This document shows positions 39,922-46,753 of a stretch of DNA of 64,000 nt, in pieces. Source of the DNA: an uncultured cyanobacterium (GTDB lineage Bacteria; Cyanobacteriota; Cyanobacteriia; Cyanobacteriales; Nostocaceae); the NCBI GenBank assembly GCA_903848645.1, contig CAINGU010000100.1:62001-126000 (forward strand), written 5' to 3'. The notes below the pieces were generated by a model that searched no databases, was not told where the DNA came from, and worked only from the letters and a program-made list of their open reading frames with translations. The position numbers and the translations under genes are program-made. Numbering within the stretch: the first letter of the stretch is position 1; each line of letters begins with the position of its first letter.

Positions 39922-40052
39922 TTAGTTTAAAGTATGGGGGTATGCTTCAGTGTACCCCTGACTATATCTGTAGAAATTATTTTCACACCCATAGGCTCAC
40001 CTCAACCGAGAATCAAGCTATCATTTTCGGAAAAAGAGCAGGGTATCTGAAT

Positions 40053-41900
40053 ATGTGTCAACATTGTCAGCAGGTGATAACAGAGCTAGATATTAATATT
40101 GAACTTTTCTTTCAAAAGTTAGATATTCTGCCAAATAAAAAGCAACTTAGTGAATTTGATCAGACAATTATTTGTCAATCACTTTTGGGATATTCTCGAC
40201 AACAAATAGCTAATATAGTCAATTTATCTGAGCAAAATATTAGGGATAGATTGAGTAAATATATCTATCCTAGAATAGCAGAATTAATGCAAGTTGACCA
40301 AGAGCAAATAGCTGGTAACTGGGTAATAATTCTCAATTTTTTACTTAATACCAATAATGGTTATAAATTAAATCCTGCCCCTCAATTAAATAATGATAAC
40401 TTCCAAGGAAGTTTTGGCAGACAAATTTTTCTTTATCCACCTAATCCAGAAATTGTTAAGTTGCAGATTGAAGGAACACAATTTTATCAACAAGGACTTT
40501 ACTATCAAGCCTTAAAGTGCTTTCTTTGGGCTTGGAAAAAAGAATTAGAGATTTACGGAATTGGTAATCCAGAAATTTTAATTTATATTAATAACTGTTT
40601 GATTGAATACAAGCAATCGCTTTTACAAACAAGAGGAATTGAAGTTTATACTCTAGCCGTAGTTGTGCCATTTTATCACAATCATGGTCATGTTGCGGCT
40701 GAAATTTTGCGAGGCATAGCCCAAATTCAATTACAATTAAATTTACCAATATTTGACAAAATTAATTTAGAAAAAGAGATCAACTTAGAGGACATTAGAC
40801 CTCATACATTTTTTACTTTAAATAATACAGTTCATCCTCTAGCTTTACGGATTTTAATTGTTAATGATCCTAATAATTTGTATGCTTCATACAACCAAAC
40901 AGCAGAGAATTTAGCTAATTTAGCATCACAATTAAATTTAATTGCTATTATTGGTCACTATTCCAGTGAAATGACTAAAAAGGCACTACAATTTTATTCT
41001 CAAAAAGGTCTGGTTTTAGTAAATTCTAGTAGTACATCTAATGAACTTTCCTATTTATCTGGTGGTGAAAGCTTATCATTTTTTAGATTAACTACTCAAG
41101 ATAACATTAATGCCAAAAAATTAGGTGACTATTTAAAGAACATACTTGCAGTTAAAAGTCAACCAAAAGTAGCTATTATCTATAACAAAAATAGTAGTTA
41201 TAGTAATTCATATAGAAATTCTATTAAGAAATATCTAGAAGAATATGAAAAATCATTTATTTTGCTATCAGAATGTAGTTATATCAGTGAAAATTACTAT
41301 CAATTTCAAAAATATATAGAAGATATTAAACAAAAAGGTGTTGATATTATTATTGTAATTCCCGATGGAGGAATTGAATCTAATTCTCTCAATAATACTG
41401 GGCTGATTAGCAGATTAAATCTCAATAATTGTCTAATAGCAGGTTCAGCTACCTTTTATCATGAAAATGTTTTACATTGGATTGATGAGCAAAGTCAGAA
41501 TAACTTAGTTAATCAAAATAATTATCAAATTATAGCCTGTATTCCTTGGCATTGGCACAGTCAAGAAAATGGCTGTAATGGAGAGAATCAATTAGCCAAA
41601 AACTTTTGTGAAATAGGCAAAGAATTATGGGGAGAAGAAAAGTTAACATGGCGTAGTGCAACTGCTTTTGATTCAGTCTTAATAATTTTGAGAACTTTAG
41701 AAAAACATAACAAATACATTCAGGATAGTCAATCTTTACTGATCAAGATGAATCAATATTTTAAAGAACAGAAAAAACAAGTGAGAGGAGTTACAGGAAT
41801 TATCGAATTTGATGAAAATGGCGATCGCATCAATCCTCCAGCAGAAATAGTAGCTGTAAAATGGGATGCACAGCAGCAAAAATGGCAATGGACAGTTTAA
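40053..41900 (+). CDS. Cytosolic HTH protein fused to a periplasmic-binding-protein-like (LIVBP type) sensor
   Basis: The protein has about 615 residues. It starts MCQHCQQVITELD, with no signal peptide or membrane helix. Residues 30-85 are an HTH module (EFDQTIICQSLLGYSRQQIA) of the same type as in the STAND ATPase at 3560. Around 140-200 there is a short helical region. The rest is a type 1 periplasmic binding fold with the family signature IIGHYSSEMTKKAL and VLVNSSSTSNEL. Such domains bind amino acids or similar ligands, but normally outside the cell. Here the protein is likely a cytosolic sensor or regulator. The upstream ATG at 39942 gives 37 poorly formed residues and was rejected. The duplicated control region of the next two genes follows it. 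Confidence 0.75.
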   Translation: MCQHCQQVITELDINIELFFQKLDILPNKKQLSEFDQTIICQSLLGYSRQQIANIVNLSEQNIRDRLSKYIYPRIAELMQVDQEQIAGNWVIILNFLLNTNNGYKLNPAPQLNNDNFQGSFGRQIFLYPPNPEIVKLQIEGTQFYQQGLYYQALKCFLWAWKKELEIYGIGNPEILIYINNCLIEYKQSLLQTRGIEVYTLAVVVPFYHNHGHVAAEILRGIAQIQLQLNLPIFDKINLEKEINLEDIRPHTFFTLNNTVHPLALRILIVNDPNNLYASYNQTAENLANLASQLNLIAIIGHYSSEMTKKALQFYSQKGLVLVNSSSTSNELSYLSGGESLSFFRLTTQDNINAKKLGDYLKNILAVKSQPKVAIIYNKNSSYSNSYRNSIKKYLEEYEKSFILLSECSYISENYYQFQKYIEDIKQKGVDIIIVIPDGGIESNSLNNTGLISRLNLNNCLIAGSATFYHENVLHWIDEQSQNNLVNQNNYQIIACIPWHWHSQENGCNGENQLAKNFCEIGKELWGEEKLTWRSATAFDSVLIILRTLEKHNKYIQDSQSLLIKMNQYFKEQKKQVRGVTGIIEFDENGDRINPPAEIVAVKWDAQQQKWQWTV

Positions 41901-41910
41901 TAATAAAAAT

Positions 41911-42007
41911 TGTTTCACACTTGTCGTCAAAATTTTCTACGCTTGAAGCATAAATCTTGAAAGTCTTACCGCTAGATTATATTTATAGCATTCAGGTAAG
42001 AGAATTA
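41911..42007 (+). promoter_or_regulatory. Duplicated upstream region, copy A
   Basis: The 45 bp starting TGTTTCACACTTGTCGTCAA match 42795-42839 at 40 of 45 positions. The distance from repeat start to ATG is 97 bp here and 96 bp there, and both end with TATAGCATT-N-AGG ahead of the start codon. The region should hold a promoter and a shared operator. Confidence 0.7.
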
Positions 42008-42571
42008 ATGGCTAGACGAAATCTATTGTTTTTTATTATTCAGACCATGATCAAGTTTTGCATAGGTTGTGGCTTCTTAGTATCAGTGTTTTTTGCACTT
42101 GCTTCACCTTTGTTAATTAGCTGGGGGATAGGCGCAGTAGATGCTGTAAATTGTCAACGTTTAAATCCAAATAATACTATTTGTGAATATCAATCTTGGC
42201 GTTTGTATGGATATTGGCATGGAATTCAAAATTTTCAACTACAAAATGCTGAAATTAATAATACAAGCGATTATCAAGGTTGTAGTTACACAATTAATTT
42301 AATAACAGATAAAGGTAAAGTTTATTGGCGTGAATATCAGTGCTATTTCGGGTTAGTACCCCAAGAAGCTAAGACAGATTTAGCTCAATTTCATAATTTA
42401 TTCAATAGTAATTCTGAACCATTATTGCGAATTAAACGAAGTAATAGTTTGCTAATGAATCTTTTTTTATTCGCTATTTCATTTTTATTTTCCATTTTCT
42501 CTTGGGGTCCCTTATTTGTGGTTGTTTGTAGTATTTTGCTATACCCCTATTCTCAAAAAAACAAAGCCTGA
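42008..42571 (+). CDS. Small two-helix membrane protein of unknown function
   Basis: This 187-residue protein has a first membrane helix near residues 10-42 (IKFCIGCGFLVSVFFALASPLL) and a second near 155-185. Between them is an approximately 100-residue outside loop with four Cys (NCQRL, ICEYQ, GCSY, QCYF) that could make disulfides. No family is recognised. The ATG at 42008 follows AGGTAAGAG and was preferred to an upstream TTG. It shares its control region with hyuA, so it may belong to the same response. Confidence 0.6.
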   Translation: MARRNLLFFIIQTMIKFCIGCGFLVSVFFALASPLLISWGIGAVDAVNCQRLNPNNTICEYQSWRLYGYWHGIQNFQLQNAEINNTSDYQGCSYTINLITDKGKVYWREYQCYFGLVPQEAKTDLAQFHNLFNSNSEPLLRIKRSNSLLMNLFLFAISFLFSIFSWGPLFVVVCSILLYPYSQKNKA

Positions 42572-42890
42572 CAGTATTTCAAAAAATATAAAAGTGAATT
42601 TTGTTGAATTTTGCTTGCAAATTAGAGTTTACATAAGCTGTTGTGCATTTAATTTATATATCAGAAGGAAGCAAGATGCTCCCACTACAAAAATGTAAAA
42701 TTTTTGTTTTCTACAATTTAGCTGCACATCAGCTTACAACCTAGTTAATTTCTGTTTCTGAACTCTTTAAATAAACTAAACTAATTTTTCATAATGTTTC
42801 ACACCTGTCGTCAAAATATTCTATGCTTGAAGTAGAAATACTCCAAATATTGTTGTTATTGTATTTTTATAGCATTGAGGAAATTAAATA
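42572..42890. other. Intergenic region with duplicated control region, copy B
   Basis: It holds the second copy of the approximately 97-bp control region (42795-42890). The left part is AT-rich, with a GCAAGATGCTCCCACTAC fragment that recurs in other spacers. No gene was seen. Confidence 0.55.
42795..42890 (+). promoter_or_regulatory. Duplicated upstream region, copy B (hyuA)
   Basis: It is the partner of 41911-42007. It ends with TATAGCATTGAGGAAATTAAATA before the hyuA ATG, where GAGG is the likely ribosome site. Confidence 0.7.
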
Positions 42891-44990
42891 ATGTTAAAAG
42901 TATTTGCAGACAGAGGTGGCACATTTACAGATATAGTCGCTGTCACTAATAATCAAACAATAATCAACAGACTTTCAAAACATCAAGAACGGTTTTTAAT
43001 CGTTCCTCTCCCTAACCAAGAATGGATAATAGTCTATAAATTACTATCAGAAAATCCTGAACAATATCAAGATGCAGCAATTCAAGGTATTCGGGATATT
43101 CTGGGCATTTCCAACCAAGAACCTATTCCTACTGAAGCCATAGAAATAGTTAAAATGGGGACAACAGTAGCCACAAATGCACTGTTAGAAAGAAAAGGAG
43201 ATCGGGTAGTTTTAGCTATTACTAAAGGCTTTAAAGATGCGTTAAAAATTGGTTATCAAAATCGTCCAAATATCTTTGCTAGGCAGATAATTTTACCCAC
43301 CATGCTTTATGAGCAGGTAATTGAAATAGACGAACGTTATGATGCTCATGGTCAGGAATTAATAGCCGTCAATATTGAAAAAACAAAACATGATTTACAA
43401 GCGGCTTATGATACAGGAATCAGGAGTTGTGCCATTGTTTTCATGCACAGCGATCGCTATCCTAAACATGAACAACAAGTAGCACAAATAGCCCAAGAAA
43501 TCGGCTTTACACAAATCTCCATATCCCATCAAGTTAGTCCATTAATGAAATTAGTCAGTCGAGGAGATACAACCGTAGTAGATGCTTATTTAACTCCGAT
43601 TTTGCGGCATTACATTAACCAAGTAGCCAGTCAACTACCTGGGGTTAAATTAATGTTCATGAAATCTGATGGTGGCTTAACCGACGCACAACAATTTCAA
43701 GGCAAAGATAGTATTTTAAGTGGTCCTGCTGGCGGCATTGTTGGTGCAATTCAAACCAGTAAAAGAGCGGGCTTTGAATTAGTAATTACCTTTGATATGG
43801 GCGGAACAAGTACAGATGTTGCCCACTTTAAAGGAGAATATGAAAGACAATTAGATTCAGAAATTGCTGGAACAAGAATGAGAGTTCCCGTATTAGCAAT
43901 TAACACAATTGCTGCTGGAGGCGGTTCAATTCTCTTTTTTGATGGTTCTAGTTATCGTGTCGGACCCCAATCAGCAGGTGCAAATCCTGGGCCAGCTTGT
44001 TACCGACGTGGGGGACAATTAACCGTCACAGATGCTAATGTCATGTTAGGAAAAATTCACCCTCAATATTTCCCCTCTGTGTTTGGAATTGCAGGCAATT
44101 TACCCTTAGATAAAGATATCGTCAAAAAGCTATTTATTCAACTATCCCAGGAGATTTTAGCCGCTACAGGAAACACTTCTACACCCGAACAAATAGCAGC
44201 GGGATTTATTGCTATTGCTGTCGAAAATATGGCAAATGCCATCAAAAAAATCAGTTTGCAACGTGGTTATGATGTCACAAAATATGTCCTTTGTTGTTTT
44301 GGTGGTGCAGGTGGACAAGTTGCTTGTTTAATTGCTGATACTTTAGGAATGAAAAAGATATTTCTTCACCCCTATGCAGGAGTTCTTTCTGCTTATGGCA
44401 TGGGATTAGCTGATGTTCGCTCAATTAAAGAAACTGGAGTAGAAAAGCCTTTAAATCAAACATTGATTCCGCAGTTACAGCAATTAATGATATCGCTAGA
44501 AAACCAAGCAAAAAATACTATTAACTCCGATAAAACAAATAGAGAAAAAATAGTCCGAAAAATTAACTTAAAATATGATGGAACTAACTCTACATTAAAC
44601 ATTAATTTTGCCGATAATGTGGCATTAATGCGAAAAGAATTTGAAACTGAACATAAAAATAGATATGGTTTTATTCAAGCAGAGAAAACCTTAATTGTTG
44701 AATCAGCCTCAGTAGAAGTAATTCAAAAAATGGACACTCCTGAAGAACCATTAATTACTCGTAATTGTCCTTTAAATGAAGTTCCCGCACCTGTGGAAAT
44801 AGTAAAAATGTTTACGGCTGATAAATGGCATGATACCCCCGTTTATCACCGGGATAATTTACAACTAGAAGATAGTATTATCGGACCTGCAATCATTATC
44901 GAAAAAATTAGCACAATTGTAGTTGAACCCCACTGGGAAGCCAGATTAACTGATAAAAATCATTTAATTTTACAACGCCATTTTTTGTAG
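42891..44990 (+). CDS. hyuA: Hydantoinase/5-oxoprolinase subunit A
   Basis: This 699-residue protein belongs to the actin-like ATPase half of ATP-dependent 5-oxoprolinases and N-methylhydantoinases. It has FADRGGTFTDIVA at the N-terminus, KMGTTVATNALLER, TFDMGGTSTDVAH and CCFGGAGGQVACL. With subunit B it opens the 5-oxoproline ring to glutamate using ATP. The match to the 5-oxoprolinase type is suggested by KLLSENPEQYQDAA, common to eukaryotic OPLAH and its fused bacterial relatives. Its last Leu codon and stop fall inside the left repeat of the inserted element at 44985-45165, so the C-terminus may have been altered. Confidence 0.9.
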   Translation: MLKVFADRGGTFTDIVAVTNNQTIINRLSKHQERFLIVPLPNQEWIIVYKLLSENPEQYQDAAIQGIRDILGISNQEPIPTEAIEIVKMGTTVATNALLERKGDRVVLAITKGFKDALKIGYQNRPNIFARQIILPTMLYEQVIEIDERYDAHGQELIAVNIEKTKHDLQAAYDTGIRSCAIVFMHSDRYPKHEQQVAQIAQEIGFTQISISHQVSPLMKLVSRGDTTVVDAYLTPILRHYINQVASQLPGVKLMFMKSDGGLTDAQQFQGKDSILSGPAGGIVGAIQTSKRAGFELVITFDMGGTSTDVAHFKGEYERQLDSEIAGTRMRVPVLAINTIAAGGGSILFFDGSSYRVGPQSAGANPGPACYRRGGQLTVTDANVMLGKIHPQYFPSVFGIAGNLPLDKDIVKKLFIQLSQEILAATGNTSTPEQIAAGFIAIAVENMANAIKKISLQRGYDVTKYVLCCFGGAGGQVACLIADTLGMKKIFLHPYAGVLSAYGMGLADVRSIKETGVEKPLNQTLIPQLQQLMISLENQAKNTINSDKTNREKIVRKINLKYDGTNSTLNINFADNVALMRKEFETEHKNRYGFIQAEKTLIVESASVEVIQKMDTPEEPLITRNCPLNEVPAPVEIVKMFTADKWHDTPVYHRDNLQLEDSIIGPAIIIEKISTIVVEPHWEARLTDKNHLILQRHFL

Positions 44991-45165
44991 GTTGGGTTGA
45001 GGCTTTGCAAAACCCAACAAAATCTCAGAAATATTGCAATACTGCTCGGTTAAGCATTTTTTAGGCATTATAGATAACAATATTTCAAGAGTCTGAGCCT
45101 ATTTTATGCCCTTAATTGAGGAGTATTGGGAAATGTTGGGTTTCGTTTCTCAACCCAACCTACAA
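44985..45165. mobile_element. MITE-like element between hyuA and hyuB
   Basis: The 17-bp inverted repeats TTGTAGGTTGGGTTGAG (left) and its exact complement (right) bound an approximately 181-bp sequence. Inside, AAAACCCAACA and TGTTGGGTTTCG are secondary arms. The left end supplies the last codon and stop of hyuA. A partial relative (GAGGAAACGAAACCCAACA) lies at about 6931-6949. Confidence 0.8.
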
Positions 45166-45196
45166 TTTTACTTATACTCAAAATATAGGACTCAAA

Positions 45197-46753
45197 ATGA
45201 AAATGTACACCACATCTCAACCAGATCCCATTCGGTTAGAAATATTCAAAAATCTCTATCAATTCATCGCCGAACAAATGGGAATTGTTCTGCAAAATAC
45301 AGCAGCATCAGTTAATATTAAAGAAAGATTAGATTTCTCCTGCGCTATTTTTGATTATTCAGGATTATTAGTTGCCAATGCCCCGCATATTCCTGTACAT
45401 TTAGGTTCAATGAGTGAAAGTGTCCGCAGTTTAATTAATGATCAAGGTGACACCATAAAAGCAGGAAATGTTTATTTATCTAATAATCCCTATAATGGTG
45501 GAACACATTTACCTGATGTAACAGCAATTACTCCGGTTTTTGACACAGACGAAAAACAAATTATTTTCTATGTTGCTTCTCGGGGACATCAATCTGATAT
45601 TGGTGGAATTACTCCCGGTTCTATGCCTCCTCACAGTACCACAGTGCAAGAAGAAGGAATTCTTTTTGATAATTTTCTCTTAGTTGAACAGGGACATTTC
45701 CGAGAAATAGAAACAAAAAAATTACTCTTAAATCATCCCTATCCAGCCCGCAACCCTGATCAAAATATAGCAGACTTTAAAGCCCAAATAGCTGCCAATG
45801 AAAGGGGAGTTCAGGAATTAAATAAAATGGTTGTACAATACAGACTTGAGACAGTTCAAGCTTACATGAATTTTGTTCAAGACAATGCAGAAGAAGCAGT
45901 CAGAAAAGCAATTGATGTTCTCAAAGATGGTGCATTTATTTATGAAATGGATAATCATGCACAGATTAAAGTTAAAGTTACTATTGATAGGAAAAATCGC
46001 AGTGCTATAATTGATTTTACTGGAACATCTCCACAACTAAATAGTAATTTTAATGCCCCCAAAGCTGTAACCCAAGCAGCAGTTTTGTATGTTTTCCGTA
46101 CTTTAGTTAATGATAATATTCCTCTTAATGCTGGGTGTCTTAAACCTTTAGAAATTATTATTCCTAAAGGCTGTATGTTAAACCCAATTTATCCCGCAGC
46201 AGTAGTCGCTGGTAATGTAGAAACTTCGCAAACTATTGTTGATGCTTTATATGGTGCATTGGGTGTTATGGCTGCTTCCCAAGGAACGATGAATAATTTT
46301 ACTTTTGGGAATGAGAAATATCAATATTATGAAACAATTTGCGGTGGTTCAGGTGCGGGGATGAATTTTAATGGTACTGATGCAATTCATACTCACATGA
46401 CTAATTCCCGTTTAACTGATCCAGAAGTTTTAGAAACCCGTTATCCTGTGCAAGTAGAGAGTTTTAGTTTGCGTTCTAATAGTGGTGGTAAAGGCCAATA
46501 TTCAGGTGGGAATGGGGTAATTCGTCGGATTAAATTTCTCCAACCAATGACAGCAAATATTCTTTCTAGTCATCGTTTAATTCCTCCCTTTGGTTTGAAT
46601 GGTGGAGAACCTGGAAAAGTTGGAAGAAACTGGATAGAACGTGAAAATGGAACTAAAGAAAATTTAGGTAATACAGCTACAGTAGAAATGCAAACTGGGG
46701 ATATTTTCGTCATAGAAACTCCTGGAGGTGGAGGATTTGGTAAAGTTTCCTAA
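45197..46753 (+). CDS. hyuB: Hydantoinase/5-oxoprolinase subunit B
   Basis: This 518-residue partner of HyuA has the family blocks [58 protein letters not shown] and the end [15 protein letters not shown]. The ATG at 45197 was chosen because the upstream open frame runs into the element. Many cyanobacterial and eukaryotic 5-oxoprolinases carry A and B as one chain. Here they are two genes 206 bp apart, separated mainly by the element. Confidence 0.92.

Follow-up and report, generated by a model that had tools for sequence, protein, structure and literature searches.

A duplicated, probable operator-promoter box before hyuA and a membrane-protein gene in a Nostocaceae genome, and the regulator that probably reads it

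Results

The fus-hyuA locus and its repeated box

The window, by which we mean the whole 64,000-nt stretch of DNA that was analysed, carries on its forward strand the gene fus (40053-41900), which encodes a probable regulator of 615 aa with a predicted N-terminal helix-turn-helix, a helical middle and a C-terminal Peripla_BP_6/ANF_receptor domain, followed by a gene for a membrane protein of 187 aa that has hydrophobic stretches towards each end (42008-42571). Downstream lie hyuA (42891-44990; Pfam PF05378, PF01968 and PF19278), for the 699-aa subunit A of a hydantoinase/5-oxoprolinase, and hyuB (45116-46753; PF02538), for its subunit B, in which homology begins, as judged from tblastn starts, about 27 residues inside the open frame. 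The open frame of fus runs from 39942 and is longer than the gene; as protein conservation starts at 40053 and the part upstream contains stops in relatives, we place the fus start at 40053. Automatic annotation may set this start too early, within 39942-40052 and over a proposed fus operator, CTATATCTGTAG-9-TTCACACCCATAG (39962-39994), whose half-sites are 21 nt apart and which stands 91 nt before the fus ATG.

Two copies of a longer box, each combining proposed operator half-sites with a promoter, precede the membrane-protein gene and hyuA. Copy 1 (41911-42007; profile score 64.7 bits) begins 97 bp before the membrane-protein ATG at 42008 and contains the half-sites TCACACTTGTCG (41915-41926) and CTACGCTTGAAG (41937-41948). 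Copy 2 (42795-42890; 83.7 bits) begins 96 bp before the hyuA ATG at 42891, with half-sites TCACACCTGTCG (42799-42810) and CTATGCTTGAAG (42821-42832). The copies are identical at 40 of their first 45 bases and both close with TATAGCATT-N-AGG, so that the preliminary description of this DNA, which had reported a 45-bp repeat with 40 matches and a shared ending 97 and 96 bp before two start codons, is confirmed in its coordinates and its details. A repeat search of the window extends the ungapped similarity to 102 nt at 74% identity, and a 38-nt pattern found twice in the window occurs in 0 of 100 shuffles, which excludes chance as the source of the pair.

That description also proposed a scan of the genome for further copies, and the scan returned the same two. 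In the genome of origin (119 contigs, 99.99% complete) only two copies stand out by BLAST (third match at E 0.24) and by element profile (third match at E 0.12), and an 18-nt pattern allowing up to two mismatches gives 2 matches, with 1 forward and 1 reverse for the reversed control pattern; these counts refer to box-type queries, and further target genes with the shorter fus-type site may have been missed. A 23-nt stretch between the membrane-protein gene and copy 2 (42670-42692) was considered as a dispersed repeat and rejected: it is single in the window, and its exact copies elsewhere all belong to overlapping loci that cover the same place.

The hyuA box across relatives

Genes resembling hyuA are present in 144 of the 150 relatives searched, and many of the upstream regions read have in common an element of about 95 bp with the consensus TCCACACCTGTCGTCAAAATATTCCACACcTGAAGTAGAAATACTC...TTGTTATYCTACTTYTAGA...GAGGAA-ATG. 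A profile built from 16 box copies finds matches in 104 of 217 family genomes (E <= 0.01), a count that includes weak matches with E above about 1e-5, and in 30 of 388 genomes sampled from the order (E <= 1e-4). Loci matched in named records come from Nostoc, Scytonema, Rhizonema and Pelatocladus. Of the 67 profile matches whose surroundings were examined, 60 fall no more than 60 nt upstream of a hyuA start, although the hyuA gene is itself truncated in two of these cases (in G045 and, for its first copy, in G026). Three others are followed by a decayed hyuA start (G026 contig 10, G162 contig 175 and G177 contig 120), and one is displaced by 171 nt (G017). The other three stand before different genes, namely the membrane-protein gene of the window, a 61-aa frame of G065 and, on contig 81 of G017, an unrelated frame. 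Boxes also occur before hyuB (G418, G445) and before a fused oxoprolinase-type gene (G103, G349). When 84,980 species genomes were scanned for the exact pattern, 10 matches came up, 8 of them cyanobacterial and all of these before hyuA; the remaining 2, in Bacteroidales and Woesearchaeota records, look like chance. Compared across these genomes, copy 2 is the ancestral promoter of hyuA, common to many Nostocales. In one locus (L168, from G045) hyuA is broken after about 54 residues, with fus and the box intact.

An added membrane-protein gene between two boxes

The membrane protein has no close relative among the 84,980 species genomes, and weak relatives (23-34% identity) were found in 7 genomes of the 149 others searched, with one more in its own genome. 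The related genome G154 shows the simpler arrangement of fus, one box and hyuA without the membrane-protein gene, and this single-box state identifies the gene plus one box copy, 884 bp together, as an addition. The gene sits exactly between the two operator copies. On sequence comparison, copy 1 is thus a duplicate of the hyuA box that now precedes the membrane-protein gene, and the gene seems to have been placed under hyuA-type control by duplication of the operator. The equal spacing of the two copies, which the preliminary description had taken as a sign of co-regulation, loses its force as independent evidence, being inherited from the duplication of one old promoter.

Copy 1 might instead be a relic, the fossil of a duplication or recombination at the hyuA promoter that has no role for the membrane-protein gene. 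Orphan boxes before broken hyuA starts do exist elsewhere (G026, G162, G177, G103), and the second box before the 61-aa frame of G065 is worn. Against this, copy 1 scores higher (64.7 bits) than the single box before an intact hyuA in G154 (37.5 bits), it has retained the full 97-bp spacing to the ATG, and no hyuA remnant follows it. We consider this explanation unlikely, though one to be kept in mind.

Other genomes also have sequence between two boxes: a D-glutamate cyclase gene in one, a 61-aa frame in another, and in a third what looks by inspection like a toxin-antitoxin cassette. In Scytonema tolypothrichoides VB-61278 (G026; L085, 1505-2696) a box with a truncated hyuA start is followed later by a second box with an intact hyuA, and the opposite-strand frames between them resemble, to the eye, a toxin-antitoxin pair. 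In G065 (L071, 779-888 onward) the worn second box and then the small hydrophobic 61-aa frame lie between fus and the hyuA box. In G103, a member of another family (L294, 3234-4470), the order is fus, box, decayed hyuA start, D-glutamate cyclase gene, second box and fused oxoprolinase-type gene.

The comparison with G154 (locus L321) revealed a further feature. A block of 1990 nt (39961-41950 of the window) is 96.8% identical in the two genomes, running from the base before the fus operator (39961) to the end of the copy 1 half-sites (41950); identity falls to 81-90% in the flanking genes, and the spacer immediately beyond the block cannot be aligned. Bounded by operators on both sides, the block looks like an exchanged operator-fus-operator unit. 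That this unit is an exchangeable regulatory cassette, with the operators also serving as borders of recombination, is a speculative extension that we consider improbable; if it were true, new genes would enter the regulon via recombination at the operators.

Fus as a probable sensor protein with a predicted helix-turn-helix

The predicted sensor domain of Fus lies above the curated cut-offs of PF13458 (34.2 bits, cut-off 31.7) and PF01094 (34.2 bits, cut-off 25.4), and a PDB profile search returned 9 sequences at E <= 0.01, all of the Leu/Ile/Val-binding-protein type. The full-length model has a mean pLDDT of 50, and use of the prediction was restricted to the N-terminal domain, the first 96 residues, modelled at pLDDT 86. 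Nearly all the top structural matches of this domain are LuxR/NarL or sigma region 4 domains, with Z at most 7.0, and the best Foldseek hit has an E value of 0.2. By sequence, Pfam Sigma70_r4_2 matches at E 0.012, which is below its cut-off, and no Pfam helix-turn-helix family reaches its cut-off; no LacI-type helix-turn-helix is among the Pfam matches to E 10, a range in which the HMMER filters limit weak matches. A helix-turn-helix in Fus is therefore likely, and it may be of the LuxR/NarL or sigma-4 type, though sequence and Foldseek comparisons assign it weakly.

A related site before fus

The site at 39962-39994, absent from the preliminary description, is of the same type as the box, shorter and more diverged, with its half-sites spaced at 21 nt as against 22 nt in the hyuA box. 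Upstream of fus, relatives and the window have in common a conserved element, C.ACATCTGTAGAAATTATTTCCACACCCATAG, whose half-sites resemble the ones in the hyuA box. A count of this fus consensus (28 of 32 regions) is circular, the consensus having been drawn from the same sequences, and the fair test is a matrix derived from 42 hyuA sites alone, by which the region upstream of fus exceeds the 99th percentile of 1,280 shuffles in 23 of 32 cases, with the sites mostly 87-94 nt before the start. Of the nine regions that fail, one (L176) has only 33 nt of sequence and four more are Nostoc-type loci with a worn first half-site. Applied to both strands of the window, the matrix gives 23.6 for the membrane-gene site, 20.6 for the hyuA site and 17.3 for the fus site, the last barely ahead of the next, unrelated site (16.3). 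By half-site pattern there are, then, three sites of one type in the window, before fus, the membrane-protein gene and hyuA, all held within one 3-kb stretch. G445 has a full-length box before fus itself in addition to the one before hyuB. Taken together, the sites suggest that fus is probably autoregulated.

The upstream unit of the box follows fus

For 177 hyuA loci we scored a distal 22-bp unit, a proximal unit and a core separately, calling the distal unit present at >= 14 of 22 positions, a threshold that shuffles reach in 1.7% of cases, and the core at >= 14 of 19. Of the 39 genomes with fus, 35 keep the distal, upstream unit, as against 18 of the 133 that lack fus. Within 11 mixed genera it is kept in 27 of 30 genomes with fus, where permutation gave a mean of 12.05 and a largest value of 20 over 20,000 permutations, although permuting within genera removes relatedness only partly. 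The core promoter part is kept at 75 of 177 loci, and in 37 of the 116 genomes that have neither fus nor the unit. Four of the 39 genomes with fus fall below the unit threshold: G226 and G231 at 13 of 22, G035, and G254 with a partial fus. Among the 18 genomes that keep the unit without fus, at least one (G044) has a match no better than chance. When fus was counted against the box, G017 was entered by hand as having the box, which lies 171 nt further upstream there, and G233 has no scored hyuA locus.

This pattern makes Fus the likely reader of the hyuA box, on comparative grounds. The preliminary description had guessed at the same protein, the fusion of a helix-turn-helix and a binding protein, from its adjacency, and the guess gains support from the link between fus and the unit and from the site before fus. 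It could be argued that another, more widespread regulator reads the box, that fus is a mere frequent neighbour, and that its loss usually takes the neighbouring half of the box with it. In keeping with this, the 18 genomes above retain the unit with no fus detected, fus remnants lie beside worn boxes in G004 and G191, and fus and hyuA are at most 3 kb apart on one strand in 26 of the 39 genomes with fus, which would make joint deletion easy. However, where fus is unlinked to hyuA the unit is still kept in 9 of 10 genomes, the exception being G035, with a distant fus and hyuA. Furthermore, three genomes carry two hyuA genes each, of which the one adjoining fus has the unit (17, 18 and 21 of 22) and the other lacks it (12 each), a difference within the same genome. 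The related site also stands at a constant distance before fus. We thus judge a different reader to be a rather poor prospect.

Discussion

We propose that the 97-bp repeat is a Fus-read operator together with a promoter, through which Fus controls hyuA(-hyuB) and fus, and whose duplication recruited the membrane-protein gene; on the comparisons above we regard this model as probable. A small molecule would be sensed by the Leu/Ile/Val-binding-protein-like domain of Fus, which would bind the upstream part of the box via its N-terminal helix-turn-helix, the target being two half-sites like CCACACCTG(T/A)(C/A)G placed 21-22 bp, or two helical turns, apart. From these sites Fus would act on hyuA(-hyuB) and on fus itself. 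Duplication of the hyuA operator/promoter around the inserted membrane-protein gene would then have brought that gene under the same control, with its expression presumably driven from copy 1.

Read as an extended -10 element, TGTTATYCT would have transcription begin about 22 nt ahead of hyuA, which puts the proximal half-site at about -48 to -26 and the distal one at about -70 to -49. This position of the half-sites, upstream of the conserved core promoter, suggests activation rather than repression by Fus. A sigma-70 promoter scan was uninformative, with 14 sites where 16.8 were expected. In G103 and in Nostoc mirabile the same cluster includes a gene for D-glutamate cyclase (PF07286), which makes 5-oxoproline or glutamate plausible ligands; the ligand is perhaps one of these or a related amide or amino acid.

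A structured, riboswitch-like RNA leader would also account for a conserved stretch directly before a metabolic gene, and a GAAGTAG...CTACTTC inverted repeat is present in many copies of the box. The consensus fold of 16 sequences nevertheless has 0 pairs and zero energy, a result that favours a DNA element, and the upstream unit would fall upstream of the inferred transcription start, so that we find an RNA leader very improbable. A dispersed repeat or mobile element, a reading that the preliminary description had tied to further copies at unrelated places and that could appeal to the two similar copies flanking the inserted gene, can be set aside almost entirely, as the genome of origin has no third close copy and the box occupies the orthologous position before hyuA in many genomes.

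Several known systems resemble the proposed one in part. AmiC of Pseudomonas is a Leu/Ile/Val-binding-protein-like cytoplasmic sensor that controls amide-hydrolase genes and works with AmiR by antitermination. Fus has in common with it a sensor of this type tied to hydrolase genes, but its predicted helix-turn-helix is part of the one polypeptide, and the box showed no RNA structure. Regulators of the LacI/GalR family join a helix-turn-helix and a periplasmic-binding-protein-like sensor in one cytoplasmic protein that binds near promoters, as Fus would. LacI, however, uses a LacI-type helix-turn-helix with Peripla_BP_1/3-type sensors, and the sensor of Fus matches Peripla_BP_6/ANF_receptor. 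LuxR/NarL (GerE) one-component regulators have a helix-turn-helix domain that the predicted helical N-terminal domain of Fus resembles at modest scores, and sites upstream of a core promoter, as is proposed here; Fus differs in the N-terminal position of this domain and in its Leu/Ile/Val-binding-protein-like sensor. As for the target genes, the window genes possess the HyuA and HyuB domains common to hydantoinase, 5-oxoprolinase and caprolactamase genes, although they lie far below the cut-offs of the NCBIfam caprolactamase models (CapA 335.9 of 1000 bits, CapB 177.5 of 1000 bits).

Searches of the open full-text literature, followed to the opening lines of abstracts, gave no report of this operator. 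The system is probably a one-component regulator that controls its own gene along with genes of the hydantoinase/5-oxoprolinase type and whose operator has been duplicated. This reading provides a probable function, that of a transcription factor, and a probable binding site for a widespread, uncharacterised cyanobacterial protein type, and would link that type to hydantoinase/5-oxoprolinase-type metabolism. The locus would also be a natural example of operator duplication adding a gene to a regulon. Finally, in G017 contig 81 (L173, 2268-2345) a 42-bit box lies downstream of a fus paralogue of 27% identity, with no hyuA, and may belong to another regulon.
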